Under the pieces are notes generated by a model. It was not told the origin of the DNA and ran no database searches. It saw only the letters and a list, made by a program, of their open reading frames with translations. From positions 124,001 through 188,000 of the forward strand of contig UBJR01000028.1 of NCBI GenBank assembly GCA_900465675.1: a stretch of DNA of 64,000 bases, read 5' to 3'. The position numbers were made by a program, and so were the translations under genes. This document shows positions 37,893 to 46,471 of this stretch, piece after piece (within the stretch, counting starts at the first letter, position 1; each line of letters starts with the position of its first letter). Source of the DNA: Hyphomicrobiales bacterium (GTDB lineage: Bacteria; Pseudomonadota; Alphaproteobacteria; Rhizobiales; Rhizobiaceae).

Positions 37893-39794
37893 ATGGCATC
37901 TCGTGGTGACAATTCGAAAGCCAAGCCCAACGGCCCTATCGATATCGAGCCGTTGCGGCGCGCGATAACCGGCTGCGTCCGCGCAATCGCCGGTAACGAC
38001 GAGGTCGAAGTGACCTTCGCCAACGAACGTCCGGGAATGACGGCCGAGCGTATCCGGCTGCCCGAGCTTTCCAAACGGCCGACGGCGCATGAGCTGGCGG
38101 TGACGCGCGGTCTGGGCGATTCCATGGCGCTCCGTCTTGCCTGCCACGACGAGAAGGTCCACACGACGATGGCGCCGCAGGGTTCCGATGCCCGTGCCGT
38201 CTTCGATGCCGTCGAGCAGGCACGAGTCGAATCGATCGGCGCGCTGCGGATGGAAGGCATGGCTGCGAACCTGCGCTCCATGACCGACGAGAAATATGCC
38301 AAGGCGAATTTCAACGGTATCGAGCGTCAGGAAGACGCGCCGATCGGTGAAGCCGTGGCGATGATGGTGCGCGAAAAGCTCACCGGTCAGAAGCCTCCGG
38401 CCTCGGCAGGCAAGGTGCTGGATCTCTGGCGTCCTTTCATCGAGGACAAGGCCGGCACCGAGCTCGATAATCTCTCCAACGTCATCAACGACCAGCAGGC
38501 CTTCTCCAAGGTCATCCGCAACATGCTGTCGGCCATGGAAATGGCCGAGGAGTATGGCGACGACGACAGCGAGCCGGAAACCGACGAGGACTCTGATCAG
38601 GACGACCAGCTGAGCGGCGACGAGCAGGACCAGGACGAGGTTGACGAAGACGCCGGTTCTGATGCTGCACCGGTCGAAGACAGCGAAGTCGCCGACGAGC
38701 AGATGGAGGACGGCGAGACTGAAGGCGCCGAAATCTCCGACGACGACATGATGGAAGAGGGTGAGGACGATTCCGAGACGCCGGGCGAGACCCGCCGTCC
38801 GAATACGCCTTTCGCCGATTTCAACGAGAAGGTCGATTACCGGGTCTTTACCGAGGAATTCGACGAGATCATCACGGCCGAAGAACTGTGCGACGCCACG
38901 GAGCTCGAGCGCCTGCGCGCGTTTCTCGACAAGCAGCTGGCGCATCTGCAGGGGGCCGTCGGCCGTCTGGCGAACCGCTTGCAGCGCCGCCTGATGGCGC
39001 AGCAGAACCGGTCCTGGGATTTCGACCTGGAAGAGGGCTATCTCGATCCGGCGCGTCTGACGCGCATGATCATCGATCCGATGCAGGCGCTGTCCTTCAA
39101 GATGGAGCGGGACACGCAGTTCCGCGATACCGTCGTGACGCTGCTGATCGACAATTCCGGCTCAATGCGCGGACGTCCGATCACGGTTGCTGCCACCTGC
39201 GCCGATATTCTGGCGCGCACGCTGGAGCGTTGCGGCGTCAAGGTCGAGATCCTCGGTTTCACCACCAAGGCCTGGAAGGGCGGGCAGGCGCGCGAGAGCT
39301 GGCTGGCCGGTGGCAAGCCGCAGACGCCGGGCCGTCTCAACGATCTCCGCCATATCATCTACAAGTCCGCCGACGCTCCGTGGCGCCGCGCCCGCAGCAA
39401 TCTCGGGCTGATGATGCGCGAGGGTCTGCTCAAGGAAAATATCGACGGCGAAGCGCTGATGTGGGCGCATAACCGCCTGATCGCGCGGCGCGAGCAGCGC
39501 AAGATCCTGATGATGATCTCGGATGGGGCGCCGGTCGACGACTCGACGCTGTCGGTCAATCCGGGCAATTATCTGGAGCGCCACCTGCGCGCCGTCATCG
39601 AGCAGATCGAGACGCGTTCGCCGGTCGAGCTGCTCGCCATCGGTATCGGTCACGACGTCACGCGCTACTATCGCCGCGCCGTCACCATCGTCGATGCCGA
39701 CGAGCTTGCAGGCGCGATGACCGAACAGCTGGCCTCTTTGTTCGAGGATCAGGCCGCACAGCCGCGTGGCGGCCACGCGCGCCGCGCCAGCTGA
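37893..39794 (+). CDS. cobT: Cobaltochelatase subunit CobT (VWA domain)
   Basis: A 633-aa protein. It contains an N-terminal CobT domain (about 1-215), a very acidic linker (about 218-305, rich in Asp and Glu) and a C-terminal von Willebrand A domain with the MIDAS motif DNSGSMRG (about 419). CobS and CobT form a ring-on-ring ATPase/MIDAS complex that drives cobalt chelation by CobN. Length and architecture match the Pseudomonas denitrificans and Brucella proteins. The gene is immediately followed by a phytase-like gene whose ATG lies four bases after the stop. Confidence 0.95.
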
Positions 39795-39798
39795 CCAT

Positions 39799-40788
39799 AT
39801 GATCGCTTTTTCCCGCGTGGCCATGCTTGCTGTCTGCCTTGCGGGACTGCCATCTGCGGTGATTGCCGAGAGTGCCCCGATCGAGAGCCGCGTCATCACC
39901 ACCTTCAAGATCGGTTCTGACGAAACCAGGTTCGGCCCGCTGGAATTCATCGGTGGTCTGGAAATGGTGTCGAGCAACCGGATATTCGGCTCGTGGTCAT
40001 CGATCAAGGTCGATCCGGATCGGAGGCATGTAGCGGGGGTGCTCGATACCGGCCATTGGCTGACCGGCACGCTGGTGCGCGATGCGCAGGGCCGTCTTTC
40101 CGGTCTTGCCGATGTCGATATCAATCCGATGAAGGACGCGACCGGGCGCAGTTTCGAAGGCAAAGGCCGCATGGATGCGGAAGGGCTCGCGCTCGACAAG
40201 GACCGCGCGCTTGTCTCCTTCGAGGGCAATCATCGCGTCGATATCTATCCGCGTCAGGGCTTCGCGAATTCACCCGCTTTGGGCACGCTGCCCATCCTGA
40301 TCCCGCGCGATGACCTGCGCGGCAACCGCAGCCTTGAGACGGTGGCGATTGCGCCCGCAGACAGCGCTCTGAAGGGTTCTGCAGTCATTGTCGCGGAGGA
40401 GAGCCTCGATGATGATGGAAACGTCTATGCGGCGATCCTGGAGGGGCCGCTGAAGGGCCGGTTTGCTGTCAGCCGCTCCGGCGATTTTGATCCGACCGAC
40501 GGGGCGTTTCTGCCCGATGGCGATCTGCTGCTTCTGGAGCGGCGCTTCAACATGGCAGATGGTATCGGCATGCGCATCCGCCGGATCGCTGCCGCCGAAA
40601 TCCAGCCTGGCGCTGTCGCAACCGGCACGGTGCTGATGACCGCCGATTTCGGCTATCAGATCGACAATATGGAAGGGCTCGATGCCTTCCGGGCCGACGA
40701 TGGCTCGACCCATATCATCCTCGTTTCGGACGATAACCATTCGATCCTGCAGCGGAACATGATGCTGGAGTTCCGGCTCGCCGAGTGA
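39799..40788 (+). CDS. Phytase-like esterase, exported
   Basis: A 329-aa protein. A signal peptide (MIAFSRVAMLAVCLAGLPSAVIAE) precedes an esterase-like-activity-of-phytase domain (PF13449 type), with the conserved RMDAEGLAL and ISEDN-like VSDDNHS motifs (near residues 125 and 310). The domain is a beta-propeller whose physiological substrate is mostly unknown. The ATG at 39799 is four bases after the cobT stop, so it is probably cotranscribed with cobS-cobT, though no cofactor role is known. Confidence 0.8.
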   Translation: MIAFSRVAMLAVCLAGLPSAVIAESAPIESRVITTFKIGSDETRFGPLEFIGGLEMVSSNRIFGSWSSIKVDPDRRHVAGVLDTGHWLTGTLVRDAQGRLSGLADVDINPMKDATGRSFEGKGRMDAEGLALDKDRALVSFEGNHRVDIYPRQGFANSPALGTLPILIPRDDLRGNRSLETVAIAPADSALKGSAVIVAEESLDDDGNVYAAILEGPLKGRFAVSRSGDFDPTDGAFLPDGDLLLLERRFNMADGIGMRIRRIAAAEIQPGAVATGTVLMTADFGYQIDNMEGLDAFRADDGSTHIILVSDDNHSILQRNMMLEFRLAE

Positions 40789-40857
40789 GCGCGCCGCCGA
40801 ACAACTGTCAAAACTCTCCGCTATCTGCTCTCTCCCTTCACCGATATCGAGAGAGCC

Positions 40858-41418
40858 ATGCTGAATATTCATGTCATGGGAGCGTCAGGCTCCGGCACCA
40901 CGACGCTCGGTCAAGCGCTTGCCGCGAAGCTCGGGATCCGGCACCTCGATACCGATCATTTCTTCTGGATGCCGACCGATCCGCCATTCACCACACAGCG
41001 GCCGGTCGAGGCGCGGGTGGCGATGCTGCACGAGGCAATCCAAGCCTCCAACGGCTGGGTTCTCTCTGGCTCAGCGCTGAAATGGGCGGCCGAGTTCGAG
41101 CCGCTCTACGATCTCATCGTCTTCCTCAGGATCGACCCCGTATTGCGCATGGCACGCATCCGGGAGCGAGAGGAGACCCGCTATGGCGACCGGATCAAGC
41201 CTGGTGGCGACATGGCAGAGAAGAGCCAGGAATTCCTGGAGTGGGCCGAAAGCTACGATACGGCAGGGCCGGAGCGGCGAAGCGCCGCTTCGCATGAGGA
41301 ATGGCTGAAGGGCAGGGCAACGCCGTTGCTCAGGCTCGATTCCTCAGAGCCGGTCGATAGCCTCGCCGCGGAAGTATTGCGCCATCCTGCCCTCAGAACG
41401 AAAGGGCCGCCGGCATAG
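40858..41418 (+). CDS. P-loop NTPase / adenylate-kinase-like protein
   Basis: A 186-aa protein. It opens with MLNIHVMGASGSGTTTLGQAL, a P-loop in which the usual lysine is replaced by threonine (GASGSGTTT). A Walker B-like LIVFLRIDPVLRMARIREREE region and an Arg-rich lid follow, as in nucleotide kinases. The variant P-loop recurs in relatives annotated as adenylate kinase-like or topology modulation proteins, so it is probably genuine. Its substrate is unknown. Confidence 0.75.
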   Translation: MLNIHVMGASGSGTTTLGQALAAKLGIRHLDTDHFFWMPTDPPFTTQRPVEARVAMLHEAIQASNGWVLSGSALKWAAEFEPLYDLIVFLRIDPVLRMARIREREETRYGDRIKPGGDMAEKSQEFLEWAESYDTAGPERRSAASHEEWLKGRATPLLRLDSSEPVDSLAAEVLRHPALRTKGPPA

Positions 41419-41439
41419 CGCCAACGGCCTCATTTGCTT

Positions 41440-42075
41440 TTAGCGAGCGGCTGTTGCCTGCATCGGGCGCAGGGTGTTCATCAGGGCGCCGTAGGGCAGC
41501 AGCATGACGAGTCCAACCAGCATCTTCACGGTGAAGTCGCCGAGCGCCCAGGAGATCCAGCGCGGAGCCTCCATCGAGAGCACGCCGAGGATCGGCGCCG
41601 ATTCCAGCGCGAAGGGTTCGTTCGCGCCGAAGAAGACGAAGAAGGCGGCAAAGGCGAAGGAGAAGAAGATGATCGTATCCAGCGCCGAGCCGATCAACGA
41701 GCCGACCAGCGGCGCGCGCCACCAGGCCTGACGGCGAAGGCGGTTGAAGACGGCGATGTCGAGCAGCTGTCCGGCAAGATAGGCCGAGCCAGAGGCGATC
41801 GCGATGCGCGGAACGGCCGTGTAGAAGGACAGGCCGACGCCGACAACGAAGCCTGCAAAGACGACCTTGCGGGCGGTCTGCGGACCGAACTGGCGGTTCG
41901 TCAGATCGGTGATCAGGAAGGCGATCGGATAGGTGAAGGCGCCCCAGGTCAGGATGTCGGCAAGGTTGATGCCGGCGACCATGGCGTTCAGCGGAAACTG
42001 AACGAGGAAGTTTGAGGCGACGACGACGAGCGTCATCAGGGCCACATAGATAAGCAGATAGCGTGTCTTCAGCAT
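41440..42075 (-). CDS. yhhQ: Queuosine precursor transporter (YhhQ family)
   Basis: A 211-aa integral membrane protein with about six helices (for example LLIYVALMTLVVVASNFLVQF and VFAGFVVGVGLSFYTAVPRIA). The conserved family segments INLADILTWGAFTYPIAFLITDL and GSLIGSALDTIIFF are present. YhhQ/QueT-type permeases import preQ0 or preQ1 for queuosine synthesis. The ATG at 42075 is chosen because the upstream sequence forms a preQ1-I-type aptamer ending in that codon; the longer open frame upstream is not coding. The gene lies downstream of rpmB but is separated from it by a terminator. Confidence 0.9.
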   Translation of the reverse strand: MLKTRYLLIYVALMTLVVVASNFLVQFPLNAMVAGINLADILTWGAFTYPIAFLITDLTNRQFGPQTARKVVFAGFVVGVGLSFYTAVPRIAIASGSAYLAGQLLDIAVFNRLRRQAWWRAPLVGSLIGSALDTIIFFSFAFAAFFVFFGANEPFALESAPILGVLSMEAPRWISWALGDFTVKMLVGLVMLLPYGALMNTLRPMQATAAR

Positions 42076-42101
42076 TTTTTTATCCTGGGTGATGCCACCA
42101 G
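42071..42101 (-). promoter_or_regulatory. preQ1-I-type riboswitch, pseudoknot includes the start codon
   Basis: On the minus strand a short P1 stem is formed by CTGG (42101-42098) and CCAG (42088-42085). The loop GGCAT (42096-42092) can pair with ATGCT (42075-42071), giving a 4-bp or 5-bp pseudoknot. Between them lie an invariant-looking C followed by ACCC (42091-42087) and an A-rich linker (42083-42076). This reproduces the B. subtilis queC preQ1-I layout, where CACCC also precedes P1 3' and an A-run joins the pseudoknot. The AUG and part of its AGGA ribosome-binding site are inside the fold. preQ1 binding should therefore block translation of the transporter. Confidence 0.8.
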
Positions 42102-42120
42102 TTGGAGTGAACAAATTTTG

Positions 42121-42137
42121 GCCGGTACCATACCGGC
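42121..42137. repeat. Inverted repeat between the rpmB terminator and the riboswitch
   Basis: Seven-base arms GCCGGTA and TACCGGC (42121-42127 and 42131-42137) flank CCA. It lies in the leader of the transporter gene and could be a second hairpin or an operator. Confidence 0.35.
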
Positions 42138-42142
42138 AAAGC

Positions 42143-42178
42143 AAAAGGCTTGTCCGGTTTCAACCGTGCAAGCCTTTT
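42143..42178 (-). terminator. Rho-independent terminator after rpmB
   Basis: AAAAGGCTTG (42143-42152) pairs with CAAGCCTTTT (42169-42178), a 10-bp stem with a 16-base loop that can form a small inner stem. T-rich sequence follows on the minus strand. It separates rpmB from the transporter gene. Confidence 0.8.
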
Positions 42179-42208
42179 GAAACTTTCGAGAAGAAAGCGC
42201 GCCGATGC

Positions 42209-42508
42209 TTAGGCGGCAGCAGCAGCTTCTGCAGTCTTCTTGACGATCTGGCGGCGCAGCAGACGAGCGCGCATCGACAGTTCGTTTTCGCTTGCCTTGA
42301 TCAGGAACGCGTCGAGACCACCGCGATGTTCAACCGAGCGCAGGGCGTGAGCCGAAACGCGCAGGCGGTAACGCTGGCCGAGAGCGTCGGAGATCAGGGT
42401 AACCTGGCACAGGTTCGGCAGGAACCGACGCTTGGTCTTGTTGTTGGCATGGCTGACATTGTTGCCAACGAGGACGGCCTTGCCGGTCAATTCGCACACG
42501 CGAGACAT
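42209..42508 (-). CDS. rpmB: Ribosomal protein bL28
   Basis: A large-subunit ribosomal protein of 99 aa. It begins [32 protein letters not shown], the classic L28 start, and ends in a poly-Ala tail. The CXXC zinc ligands of some L28 types are absent (C5 without partners), so this is the zinc-independent (C-) form. The larger open frame covering it upstream is a shadow. It has its own terminator. Confidence 0.96.
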
Positions 42509-42746
42509 TTGACACCTATTCTTGTTTTTCTCAGCCGCCGAATTACGACGCACCGGCAAAACCGGGCTTGCAATCCAAGGCCATGATTGGAAAGTTGCGG
42601 TTCTATAGTCAGAGCGGCTCGCCGCGTCAAGCCAAACCTTGGCCTTTCCCGCAATTCTGTCAAAAAGCTCGTGTTTGCTTCGACAAGCGGCCAGAGTATA
42701 GACCGCGTAACAGGGCGGCGTTCGCCCGTCAAACAAGGCTCGCTTC

Positions 42747-43523
42747 ATGGCTCTTCTGGGCAGACGGATTTTGATCCCTGCAATCGTGGCATCGATGGCG
42801 ATTCCGGCCGGCGCGGAGGAGATCCGCCACCGCACGGAATATCGCGTCGCCCTCGGTGTCCTGCCGATCGCGCGGGCGGCCTTCGTCACGCAGATCGAGG
42901 ATGACAAGAGCTATACGGTATCCGGTGACATCAGCTCGGCTGGTCTTGCCGACCTGGTGACGACGATTTCGGCTAAGACCAGCGTCGATGGCGTCATCCG
43001 CGATGACCGGCTGCAGGCGCAGCGCTATTCGCTCTATTACAAGAGCGGCAAGCGGGCGCGGACCTACGAGGTTCGCTACAGCAACGGCAATATCGTTTCG
43101 ACCACGGTGAAGCCGGAGCGCAAGCCGCCGAGCAACTGGATCAATGTATCGCCGGGCGATATGCGATCGGTTCTCGATCCGATTTCCGGCCTGATCTTTC
43201 CTGCTGACGTGAAGCTCTGCTCGCAGAAGCTGCCGATCTATGACGGCGAGATGCGCATGGATCTGGTGCTATCGCCGAAGGGCTCCGAAGATTTTGCGAC
43301 GGATGGGTTCACCGGCAAGGCGACCGTCTGCAGCGTCCGCTTCGTGCCGCGGTCGGGCTACAAGAAGGGCCGCAAGGATATCGATTATCTGAGCAAGAGC
43401 GGCCGGATGGAAATCTGGTTTGCCAAGGCGGATGCGGCAAATGTATATGCTCCAGTCTACGTCAGCATTCCGACGCAATATGGAACGGTGACGATCAAGG
43501 CGGTGAAATACAGCGCCAGCTGA
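42747..43523 (+). CDS. DUF3108 family exported protein
   Basis: A 258-aa protein. A signal peptide ([23 protein letters not shown]) precedes a DUF3108 domain: [56 protein letters not shown] and YDGEMRMDL. The family is a periplasmic beta-rich protein of unknown function, perhaps lipid-binding. The gene is divergent from rpmB. Confidence 0.8.
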
Positions 43524-43550
43524 CGGAGCCTGTCTCCGCAATCGGGGGAC

Positions 43551-44447
43551 ATGATGAAGCTTCGGGCAACTTTGATCGGTTTCACGGCCATTCTGATGTG
43601 GTCGTTTCTCGCGCTCTTCACTGCTGCATCCGGCAAGATGCCGCCATTCCAGCTGTCGGCGATCTGCTTTGCCATCGGCAGTATCCCCGGCATCGCCGTC
43701 CTCGTTCTCAACCCGTCGCGGCTGGCGCTCTTGAAGCAGCCGGCGAAGGTCTGGATCGTCGGCATCGCCGGTCTGTTCGGCTATCATTTTCTCTATTTCA
43801 CGGCGCTCCGGAACGCTCCGGCAGTCGAGGCCGGACTGATCGCCTATCTCTGGCCGCTGCTGATCGTCGTCGGCTCGGCGCTGCTGCCGGGCGAGAAGCT
43901 GCGCTGGTATCATATTGCCGGTGCCCTTGGCGGTCTCTGCGGCACGTTTCTGATCGTCGGACGCAACGGCATCAATTTCGATGGCGCCTATGCCGTCGGT
44001 TATGGCGCGGCGTTTCTCTGCGCATTCACCTGGTCCGGCTATTCACTGCTGACGCGGCGTTTCGATGCGGTGTCGACCGATGTCGTGACCGGCTTCTGCA
44101 TCGCCACGTCGATCCTGTCGCTCGTCTGCCATCTCGGATTGGAAACCACCGTATGGCCTGAAACGGCATTCGAGTGGCTGGCCGTCGTCGGGCTCGGGCT
44201 CTTTCCGGTGGGGGCCGCCTTCTATGCCTGGGATCATGGCGTCAAGAATGGCGATATACAGATTTTGGGCGCTGCAAGCTATGCCGCTCCGCTGCTCTCG
44301 ACGCTGATCCTGACTCTGTTCGGCTTTGCGGAGCCGAGCTGGCGGATTGCTCTTGCCTGCCTGCTGGTCACCGGTGGTGCCATTCTGGCGGCGCAGGAAA
44401 TGTTCCGGCGCAAGACGGCGCCGAAACAGCCTGCGGCAGCCGAGTAG
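43551..44447 (+). CDS. EamA-family transporter (YddG-like amino acid exporter)
   Basis: A 298-aa permease of the drug/metabolite superfamily with about ten membrane helices and two EamA halves. The first segment is LRATLIGFTAILMWSFLALF, and YLWPLLIVVGSALLPGEKLRWYHIAGALGG is typical of the fold. It resembles aromatic amino acid exporters, but the substrate is inferred only from similarity. Two ATGs (43551, 43554) lie close together behind a GGGGGA site. Confidence 0.8.
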   Translation: MMKLRATLIGFTAILMWSFLALFTAASGKMPPFQLSAICFAIGSIPGIAVLVLNPSRLALLKQPAKVWIVGIAGLFGYHFLYFTALRNAPAVEAGLIAYLWPLLIVVGSALLPGEKLRWYHIAGALGGLCGTFLIVGRNGINFDGAYAVGYGAAFLCAFTWSGYSLLTRRFDAVSTDVVTGFCIATSILSLVCHLGLETTVWPETAFEWLAVVGLGLFPVGAAFYAWDHGVKNGDIQILGAASYAAPLLSTLILTLFGFAEPSWRIALACLLVTGGAILAAQEMFRRKTAPKQPAAAE

Positions 44448-44448
44448 G

Positions 44449-44871
44449 TCAGCCGGCCGGTGCCCAGTCCGGCGGTGCCATCTCGAATTTCGAGAATTCG
44501 AAGCCGGGTGAGACGGTGCAGCCGACAAGGGTGAAATCGCCGAGCGTTTCGGCCGATTGCCACCAGTTGGCGGGAATGATTGCCTGGGGGCGTTCGCCGC
44601 CCGCCAGGTCGGTGCCGAGCTTCAGCGTTTCGCTGCGCGTTCCGTCTTCCGAGCGATGCAGGGCGAGCGGTGCTCCGGCGTAATAGTGCCAGATCTCGGC
44701 GGCGTCGTGGACGCGGTGCCAATGCGATCGCTCTCCTGATTTCAGCAGATAGTAGATCGCCGTCGAATGACCGCGCTCGCCGCCATTGGTGTCGCGGAAG
44801 GTCTGGATATAGAAGCCGCCTTCCGGATGCAGCTGCATCGAAAGCGCCTCGATGATCTCGTCGGGCGACAT
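44449..44871 (-). CDS. DUF985 cupin protein
   Basis: A 140-aa protein. The DUF985/cupin pattern is visible: HPEGGFYIQTFRDT, STAIYYLLKSGERSHWHRVHDAAEIWHYYAGAPL and IIPANWWQSAETLGDFTLVGCTVSPGFEF. The histidines in SHWHRVHDAAEIWH may form a metal site. The start codon overlaps the gloB stop (TGATG), so the two are translated together. The function is unknown, possibly isomerase or sugar-binding. Confidence 0.88.
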   Translation of the reverse strand: MSPDEIIEALSMQLHPEGGFYIQTFRDTNGGERGHSTAIYYLLKSGERSHWHRVHDAAEIWHYYAGAPLALHRSEDGTRSETLKLGTDLAGGERPQAIIPANWWQSAETLGDFTLVGCTVSPGFEFSKFEMAPPDWAPAG

Positions 44872-45641
44872 CAGAAATTGTCCTTGCGCTTGCGGATTTC
44901 CGCAAAGACCTCTTCGTTCGTCTTCGTTTCCATCAGAAGATTGCGGCGGATTGCTGGATCGGCAGCGCGCAGGAAGGGGTTGGTTTCCTTCTCAAGCGCC
45001 AGCGTCGTCGGGATCGTGAAGCGTCCGTCGGCGCGCAGTGCCTCGATTTCGGCGGCGCGGGCCTTCAGCCGCTCATTTGTGGGGTCGATGGTGACGGCGA
45101 AGCGGGCATTGGACAGCGTATATTCATGGCCGAAATAGATGGCCGTCTCATCCGGCAAGACCGCAAGCTTCTGCAGCGAATGCCACATGTCGGCGGCGGG
45201 GCGCTCGAACAGGCGGCCGCAACCGAGCGCAAACAGCGTATCGGCGGCGAAGAGCAGCTTGTCGTCGACGAAGTGATAGCAAATGTGGCCGGCGGTGTGG
45301 CCGGGGGTCTCGATCACGTTGACCGTATGGTCGCCGAAGGTGAAGCTGTCTCCATCGGCCATCGTCTTGTCGAGGCCAGGGATGGCCACGGCCTCGTTCA
45401 CCGGGCCGATGATCTCGCAGCCGAACTGCTCCTTCAGCGCCAGATTGCCTTCGACATGGTCGGTGTGGTGATGGGTGGTGAAGATGTGGGAGATGGTCCA
45501 GCCGCGGCGCTTGGCTGCCGCTTCGACCGCAGCCGCATCCGGCGCGTCGATCGTTGCCGTCAGGCCGGTTTCCGGATCATGCACGAGAACGCCAAAATTA
45601 TCGGAGCGGCAGAGAAAAACTTCTAATTCCAAAGGTTTCAT
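44871..45641 (-). CDS. gloB: Hydroxyacylglutathione hydrolase (glyoxalase II)
   Basis: A 256-aa protein that hydrolyses S-lactoylglutathione to lactate and glutathione, the second step of methylglyoxal detoxification. Metal ligands are in THHHTDH (about 57-62) with further ligands in ETPGHTAGH and the [11 protein letters not shown] segment, and the C-terminal HAGH domain is present. The ATG at 45641 is used, since the longer open frame adds an unlikely leader. The gene is divergent from a methyltransferase gene. Confidence 0.93.
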
Positions 45642-45730
45642 AGTCTGAACGGCCTCTTTCCTACGGACATGCCCGGAATGTAGAGGCTCCGGCCTTGAAG
45701 TCCAACCGCCCACTGATAACATTTACCGCA

Positions 45731-46471
45731 ATGCACGCGGATATTGTCGATCTACGCCAGTTTTATCATTCCGAGCTTGGCCGCCTGGCCGAGCAGTCGA
45801 TCGCCATGGCGCTGTCGTCGCTCTGGGTGCGGCTGCCGCAGGAGAGATTGGTCGGTCTCGGCTATGCCGTGCCGTTTCTCGATCGTTTCGGAGCCGATAC
45901 CGAGCGCACCTTCGCCTTCATGCCGGCCGGCCAGGGCGCGGTGAACTGGCCGATGGGGTCGCTCTCCTCGACGGCGCTGATTTTCGATGAAGAATTGCCG
46001 CTGCCGGATTCATCTGTTGACCGGGTGCTGATGGTTCATTCGCTGGAATTTGCCGAAAGCCCGCGGGAGACGCTGAAGGAGCTCTGGCGGGTGCTTGCGC
46101 CGGGCGGGCGTCTGGTGATCGTCGTGCCAAACCGGCGTGGCGTCTGGGCGCGGATGGAGCACACGCCCTTCGGCTCCGGCCGCCCTTATTCGCGTGGCCA
46201 GCTGACGCATTTGCTGCGCGAGACCAACTTTACCCCCGGAGCTTCCGCCGAGGCGCTGTTCTTCCCGCCGTCCAAGCTGCGCACTGTACTGAGCCTGCGG
46301 CGTGGCTTCGAGCGCATCGGACGGACGCTGTGGCCCGCCTTCTCCGGTGTCATCATCGTCGAGGCGCAGAAGCGTCTCTATCAGGGTCTGCCGGTAGCTG
46401 CACGCGCCTCGCGCCGCGTCTTCGTGCCGGTTCTTGCGCCGCATGGCGTTCCGACCACGCGCAACCGCTAA
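45731..46471 (+). CDS. SAM-dependent methyltransferase
   Basis: A 246-aa protein. A class I methyltransferase core (LPDSSVDRVLMVHSLEFAESPRETLKELWRVLAPGGRLVIVVPNRRG) is preceded by an atypical N-terminal portion in which the usual glycine-rich GxGxG is reduced. The C-terminal half is basic and ends in a Arg-rich tail. Relatives often sit beside gloB in rhizobia. The ATG at 45731 is favoured over an upstream one. The substrate is unknown. Confidence 0.8.
   Translation: MHADIVDLRQFYHSELGRLAEQSIAMALSSLWVRLPQERLVGLGYAVPFLDRFGADTERTFAFMPAGQGAVNWPMGSLSSTALIFDEELPLPDSSVDRVLMVHSLEFAESPRETLKELWRVLAPGGRLVIVVPNRRGVWARMEHTPFGSGRPYSRGQLTHLLRETNFTPGASAEALFFPPSKLRTVLSLRRGFERIGRTLWPAFSGVIIVEAQKRLYQGLPVAARASRRVFVPVLAPHGVPTTRNR

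Follow-up and report, generated by a model that had tools for sequence, protein, structure and literature searches.

A probable preQ1-I-type riboswitch, closest to type III, at the start codon of yhhQ in Rhizobiaceae

The 64,000-nt stretch of DNA analysed here (the window; contig UBJR01000028.1 of a Hyphomicrobiales bacterium) carries a yhhQ-type gene for a queuosine-precursor transporter. The question raised by this locus is whether the start of the gene lies inside a riboswitch, as the first-pass annotation had proposed when it placed the start codon in the pseudoknot of a preQ1-I aptamer. Our comparison makes it highly probable that yhhQ translation is controlled by this element as a riboswitch of the preQ1-I class, with type III as its nearest type. 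Support comes from the conserved sequence, from covariation, from the gene context, and from a loop that in one class of relatives is nearly identical to that of the E. coli aptamer.

The bases of the element were numbered on the minus strand as n = 42103 minus the window position. Read from the window sequence, the minus strand from 42102 to 42072 is ACUGG UGGCAUCAC CCAGGAUAAAAAAAUGC, with the bases A1, C2, U3, G4, G5, U6, G7, G8, C9, A10, U11, C12, A13, C14, C15, C16, A17, G18, G19, A20, U21, A22–A28, U29, G30, and C31. P1 contains four base pairs (C2–G18, U3–A17, G4–C16, and G5–C15; CUGG/CCAG), and its hairpin is closed by the 9-nt loop UGGCAUCAC and followed by the A-rich linker. Inside the loop, GCAU (8–11) is the exact complement of AUGC (28–31). 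The 4-bp stem, the CACCC segment (12–16), the A-rich linker, and the GCAU/AUGC complementarity of the first-pass annotation were all found where it had placed them. Its longer pairing, GGCAT with ATGCT, held for four pairs; the fifth, between G7 and base +5, could form in the window yet is not conserved, since base +5 in the relatives of the same loop class was T in 88, A in 15, C in 13, and G in 12 of 128 contexts. The nested-fold energy of the element region was unremarkable (z 0.76), as calculated by a folding program without pseudoknot scoring. Coordinates of all features are given in Table 1.

Table 1. Features of the yhhQ locus, in window coordinates.
Feature	Position	Strand	Source
Whole 31-nt preQ1-I-like H-type pseudoknot	42072..42102	(-)	
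P1 5' strand CUGG	42098..42101	(-)	
P1 3' strand CCAG	42085..42088	(-)	
Loop G8 C9 A10 U11, P2 5' strand, complementary to AUGC	42092..42095	(-)	
C14, counterpart of the E. coli type III preQ1 specificity base	42089..42089	(-)	PMC10622847, in part
A-rich linker L3 (U21, A22–A27)	42076..42082	(-)	
A27 in the L3 linker, counterpart of the preQ1-contacting A27 of E. coli		(-)	PMC10622847, in part
Shine-Dalgarno-like AGGA overlapping the P1 3' strand, 7 nt before AUG	42083..42086	(-)	
Putative start codon AUG (A28 U29 G30), P2 3' strand	42073..42075	(-)	
C31, first base of codon 2, complementary to G8	42072..42072	(-)	
yhhQ-type queuosine-precursor transporter gene, 211 aa	41440..42075	(-)	Pfam PF02592 and translation
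Ribosomal protein L28 gene, 3' part, upstream of the element	42209..42475	(-)	Pfam PF00830, E 3.3e-20
Perfect 10-bp inverted repeat AAAAGGCTTG/CAAGCCTTTT, terminator-like, between the L28 gene and the element	42143..42178	(-)	Read from sequence

The YhhQ-type permease that had been read directly downstream was confirmed by its Pfam domain (Vut_1, PF02592, E 1.2e-22). The genome also encodes Tgt (at 53% identity) and a protein resembling QueC (33%), so a queuosine-pathway metabolite could be synthesised in addition to being imported. The inverted repeat AAAAGGCTTG/CAAGCCTTTT lies about 40 nt before the element. It may be a terminator or an attenuator, which would leave the yhhQ promoter unexplained. 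A simple scan of 42000–42300 detected no terminator by its own rule and no sigma-70-like promoter.

Rfam searches at E ≤ 10 over 38000–46000 and 42040–42150 returned chance-level families only and no preQ1 match. No RF00522 match was found at the element, and the same search also missed the proven, crystallised E. coli type III aptamer, which stayed unmatched in a 201-base query (L180:5100–5300; Rfam release 15, E ≤ 10). Therefore, the absence of an Rfam match says little, and the E. coli miss reveals a blind spot of the Rfam model. In a whole-genome control, something matched at E ≤ 10 in 14 of 14 genomes, archaea included, with a single one passing the cut-off. A same-strand match below threshold (12.3 bits, E 4.5) would make the element a SAM-II-type pseudoknot, but the gathering score of that family is 44 bits and membership was rejected. 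As the gene is yhhQ and the loop resembles that of E. coli preQ1 type III, we give this reading almost no weight.

Conservation was examined at several depths. Within the genus, ACTGGTGGCATnnCCCAGGATAAAAAAATGCTGA was kept in 13 of 13 genomes examined, that of the window included. Loci of named relatives, which include Rhizobium, Agrobacterium, Sinorhizobium, Neorhizobium, and others, were found by protein alone, and the best 80 of 582 confirmed loci were compared. The first-pass annotation had staked its claim on homologues in related rhizobia keeping the GCAT/ATGC pairing and the core, and they did so exactly in 79 of these 80 yhhQ loci (the best 80 of 582), the 80th differing by one N in the A run. 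Averaged over the best 80 of 582 loci, column conservation reached 0.94 across the 17-nt hairpin and 0.92 across the 14 nt that follow it (the linker to just past AUGC), and the flanks were less conserved (0.20 for the 60 nt upstream and 0.51 for the 46 nt downstream). On this comparison, the conservation of the element is beyond chance. Of the CACCC segment, only C14-C15-C16 is nearly fixed; bases 12–13 vary (CA, TA, AC, CT, and AA).

For the family, taken as Rhizobiaceae from the named matches, a model (R2) was built from such element sequences. It gave matches in 272 of 297 genomes at E ≤ 0.01; four of these were weak (E 0.005–0.008) and without a yhhQ match, and a credible element (E ≤ 2.2e-6) was present in 268 of 297. 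Protein searches of 24 of the other 29 family genomes gave no yhhQ match in 13; in the remaining 11, yhhQ was present, but inspection by eye showed no clear element. Five of these 11 genomes measure 1.1–1.6 Mb, and one of the 11 (L246, in a 1.5-Mb genome) has a decayed-looking copy of the element upstream of yhhQ (CTGGTTCCATTACCAAG, with a broken A run). Second matches, and those at L236 and L237, were weak, and the ones viewed had no yhhQ. In the fetched loci, yhhQ was downstream in 225 of 225 element matches (205 unique contexts; worst E 1.4e-6). Four loci (L225, L226, L228, and L229) have one extra L2 base before the P1 3' strand, with yhhQ still in frame. One genome (G289) has two yhhQ copies on separate contigs (L256 and L257), each with an element; it may be a mixed genome, with contamination listed as 4%.

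Over the order, model R1 matched 68 of 347 genomes at E ≤ 0.5, and its 17 strong matches (E ≤ 2.1e-4) were all within this same family (f1); among the weaker matches, 13 loci viewed by eye (L167–L179) had no such element. A loose pattern (212 of 297 genomes) was rejected for counting because part of its matches were coding sequence reading GEAGGITQHIGAYQV, which we take to be translation factor IF2. This coding sequence (L167–L169, L178, and others) holds the hairpin sequence by chance and misleads pattern searches. A type-III-shaped pattern matched 12 of 289 genomes over the class, and none of the 12 loci tested had yhhQ downstream. Over the phylum, as a positive control, it matched 61 of 329 genomes, and the 29 loci checked (L303–L331) comprised eight rhizobial elements with U7-C8 in the loop, 15 E. 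coli-type elements, and six loci without yhhQ. In the 15 E. coli-type loci, YhhQ was best matched by that of E. coli.

Base pairing was analysed in the 205 unique contexts. The context script imposed U6, CAT, C14, ATG, the A run, and pairing in P1; bases 7, 8, 12, and 13, most of the linker, and base +4 were free to vary. This script was passed by 95 of 95 tested loci from the model searches (L181–L235 and L249–L288); since the model was built from such sequences, the 13 genus and 80 protein-found loci serve as the independent check. Because MAFFT aligned the 3' end wrongly in some rows, base pairs were counted by anchored positions. Three loop states were observed. The G7-G8 class, to which the window belongs, had C31 in 128 of 128 contexts (G8–C31), and the G7-C8 class had G31 in 19 of 19 (C8–G31). 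In the U7-C8 class, C8 faced A in 24, C in 29, T in 5, and G in none of 58 contexts, so the fourth pair never forms. The +4 base had been included in the proposed pairing, and this pair covaries in the two G7 classes. As background, 6 of the window's 26 ORFs with a preceding SD have G at +4, as do 29 of 113 in the locus flanks (yhhQ included). Codon 2 in the G7-G8 class is Leu in 88, Gln in 15, Pro in 13, and Arg in 12 contexts (the CNN codons minus His). Each loop state may set its own rule for the first base of codon 2.

P1 was CTGG/CCAG in 203 of 205 unique contexts, with CTAG/CTAG in L217 and CCGG/CCGG in L235; judged from the sequences, both variants are compensatory. In L235 the yhhQ similarity begins 141 nt later than expected. 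A fifth P1 pair between bases 1 and 19 was standard in only 27 of 221 rows. G5–C15 was G–C in 221 of 221 rows, where the search favoured or required it, and was kept in the best 80 of 582 protein-found loci. U6, C14, and A27 were present in 205 of 205 contexts (U6 and C14 script-required) and likewise kept in the best 80 of 582 protein-found loci. C14 was also C in 16 of 16 E. coli-type elements, this C being part of both search expressions. C9-A10-U11 and A28-U29-G30 were invariant in the family but script-required, and R2 came from such sequences, so covariation within the family is confined to 8/31 and P1.

The number of independent switches was assessed on a quick-search tree of 78 proteins, with one row per genus code, class, and +4 base, omitting rows under 80 aa and the G7-G8 rows of named genera. 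This tree contains nine class changes. The G7-C8/G31 label changed (by gain or loss) at least three times on starred branches, and +4 G accompanied G7-C8 in three of three starred pairs, a number below what significance needs (sign test p 0.25), with five pairs on all branches. An earlier FastTree of 201 partial proteins (four short rows dropped) resolved little, and its G7 rows alone gave one starred pair. One genus code (g47) contains both the G7-G8/C and the G7-C8/G states. The small number of independent switches, and the unpaired 8/31 in 58 of 205 contexts, are among the points against the riboswitch reading.

A short, nearly invariant sequence adjoining a start codon, in which CTGG/CCAG is an inverted repeat, could also be a conserved DNA operator or a strong ribosome-binding site with only incidental complementarity. 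The coupled states of 8 and 31 point instead to RNA pairing, the first base of codon 2 is fixed despite four different amino acids, and AUGG is kept even where AUG is out of frame; this explanation is therefore very improbable.

In 198 contexts the AUG of the element shares the reading frame of yhhQ, and in 198 of 198 that frame stays open as far as the similarity. In 197 of the 198, G at base 19 creates an AGG where P1 meets the linker. In the window, AUG is the putative yhhQ start codon. L048 is the sole in-frame context without G19 and has a possible GTG start 15 nt on. In the seven out-of-frame contexts, base 19 was C in all and G in none, and a yhhQ-frame ATG lies 13 nt on in six (one with another 7 nt on) and 16 nt on in one. 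AUGGA or AUGGAG therefore sits where the SD of that ATG would be. In eight contexts, assigned by frame and spacing, AUG is probably not the start codon, and AUGGA is SD-like. The retention of AUGG in those eight argues that pairing, beyond initiation alone, preserves these bases. With these eight relatives as the exception, the proposal that the pseudoknot includes the start codon is supported, and the SD-like AGGA lies within the element as well.

The nearest known structure is the E. coli type III aptamer. The E. coli yhhQ leader reads UUGGG UUCCCUCAC CCCAA, followed by a linker and AAAAAGG. In its crystal structure, P2 consists of U11–A28, C10–G29, and C9–G30; C14 reads preQ1, A27 touches preQ1, U7 holds A27, A13 has contacts, and the G5–C15 pair that floors the pocket is described as constant in all preQ1-I subtypes (PMC10622847, in part). 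Type III is described as almost exclusively gammaproteobacterial and as controlling yhhQ (PMC10622847, in part), and it buries the SD (PMC10622847 and PMC11625349, in part). The element shares with it the gene family, the H-type layout, the 9-nt loop, U6, C14, the A-rich linker, A27, and a P2 built from bases 9–11 with 28–30. Type III also has AC ahead of the P1 3' strand and four to five A before P2, and the window agrees in both, with CAC and a run of seven A; A13 is variable among the relatives. The match to the preQ1-I order of elements claimed at first pass is thus supported, with the refinement that the nearest relative is type III.

The resemblance was closest in the U7-C8 class. Its loop differed from UUCCCUCAC at base 10 alone in 29 of 58 contexts (UUCCAU versus UUCCCU in E. 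coli), at base 12 too in 27, and had one extra base in two. Pair 10/29 was C–G in 16 of 16 E. coli-type elements (the 15 loci and E. coli itself, taken as gammaproteobacterial by inference) and A–U in 205 of 205 rhizobial-type contexts, where ATG was script-required. The phylum pattern left bases 10/29 open, and the 8 and 15 yhhQ loci that it found show these two states and no other. In neither group did U7-C8 occur with G31 (58 and 16 rows), which would fit a C8 that contacts U11–A28 as in E. coli and replaces the fourth pair. The SD half of P2 (AAGG) appears to have been exchanged with the start codon (AAUG), and the change could have run in either direction.

The element also differs from type III. 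The P2 3' strand is AAUG, the start codon, in 205 of 205 contexts (ATG script-required), unlike the AAGG, an SD, of type III, and the SD-like sequence lies where P1 joins the linker. Type III loops are pyrimidine-rich with UU, a description that fits only the U7-C8 class (58 of 205), unlike the window loop UGGCAU with its fourth P2 pair 8–31. The element would accordingly be described as a new variant of preQ1-I, which has the class I features wherever these can be compared and, in the window's copy, lacks two features of type III.

U7 gives way to G7 in 147 of 205 contexts, and the possible gatekeeper A13 is variable; the pocket and the ligand may therefore differ from those of E. coli. One alternative is that the pocket is altered and the G7-class ligand of a preQ1-I-like regulatory pseudoknot is not preQ1 but preQ0, queuine, or another deazapurine. 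Both altered bases are contact sites in E. coli (PMC10622847, in part), and YhhQ is reported to carry preQ0 or preQ1 (PMC10622847 and PMC5372724, in part). Against this, U6, C14, A27, and G5–C15, the direct contacts and the floor in E. coli, are kept, and we regard a different ligand as unlikely. A ligand-free translational element, acting by ribosome tuning or protein binding and descended from or merely resembling preQ1-I, would also explain why the SD-like AGG and AUG are covered in 197 of 198 in-frame contexts. However, the UUCCAU class is near-identical to the E. coli aptamer loop, the target gene is the same, and ligand-contact bases are kept beyond the needs of pairing, which makes this explanation improbable.

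The preferred reading remains a preQ1-I-type riboswitch, whose ligand would most likely be preQ1. When the ligand is bound, P1 would form, the A-rich linker would lie along it, and G8-C9-A10-U11 would pair with A28-U29-G30-C31. As the P2 3' bases are the start codon and a base of codon 2, and AGGA overlaps P1, the whole ribosome entry site would be inside the aptamer. This fold would hide SD and AUG together and block initiation. Precursor sufficiency would in this way repress precursor import by the negative feedback that the first-pass annotation had proposed, possibly with almost no leader RNA, and the element is likely a translational off-switch for precursor uptake.

Several known systems are comparable. 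The T. tengcongensis class I type II riboswitch is also a one-ligand H-type pseudoknot with AC before the P1 3' strand and direct occlusion of initiation, but there burial is limited to the first one or two nucleotides of the SD, and a start codon in P2 is not described in the portions consulted (PMC11625349 and PMC10907184, in part). A review places preQ1-I and SAM-II in a direct-occlusion group with an embedded ribosome-binding site, and SAM-II, SAM-III, and SAM-SAH riboswitches likewise hold that site within the ligand-binding fold; unlike here, their ligand and aptamer are other ones, and the ribosome-binding site, not the start codon, is embedded (PMC10907184, in part). By title, the literature searched gave no preQ1 riboswitch of rhizobia, Agrobacterium, or alphaproteobacteria and no pseudoknot with an embedded start codon; such sequences may already be included in McCown 2014, which reportedly defined the preQ1-I types. 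The expression platform of the Vibrio vulnificus adenine riboswitch hides both SD and start codon, with the start codon in a separate helix outside the ligand-binding fold. A rhizobial or start-codon preQ1 riboswitch is not described in the consulted passages of PMC10907184, PMC9410914, PMC4448311, PMC3766115, and PMC5372724, and the strings 'start codon' and 'rhizob' are absent from the main texts of PMC10622847 and PMC11625349.

We consider it reasonably probable that the element represents a Rhizobiaceae-wide preQ1-I subtype with the start codon within the ligand-binding fold and A28 in the pocket ceiling. Its scaffold would swap the hidden bait, SD in gammaproteobacteria and a few rhizobial relatives and AUG in most, and its loop states would constrain the second residue of the protein. 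If true, the type III-like switch would extend beyond gammaproteobacteria to a whole family that includes rhizobia. Because natural variants would hide either the start codon or the SD with one scaffold, which of the two needs occluding to stop translation becomes directly testable. In S. meliloti, symbiosis is impaired by mutation of queC, queF, or tgt, and in a HeLa-cell assay the mutants in queC and queF were rescued when preQ1 was added (PMC3568095, in part). Since queuosine genes affect symbiosis there, the switch would act within a pathway for which a phenotype is known. Uptake in rhizobia and related bacteria is probably self-limiting, in that the metabolite brought in conceals the point at which translation of its importer begins.
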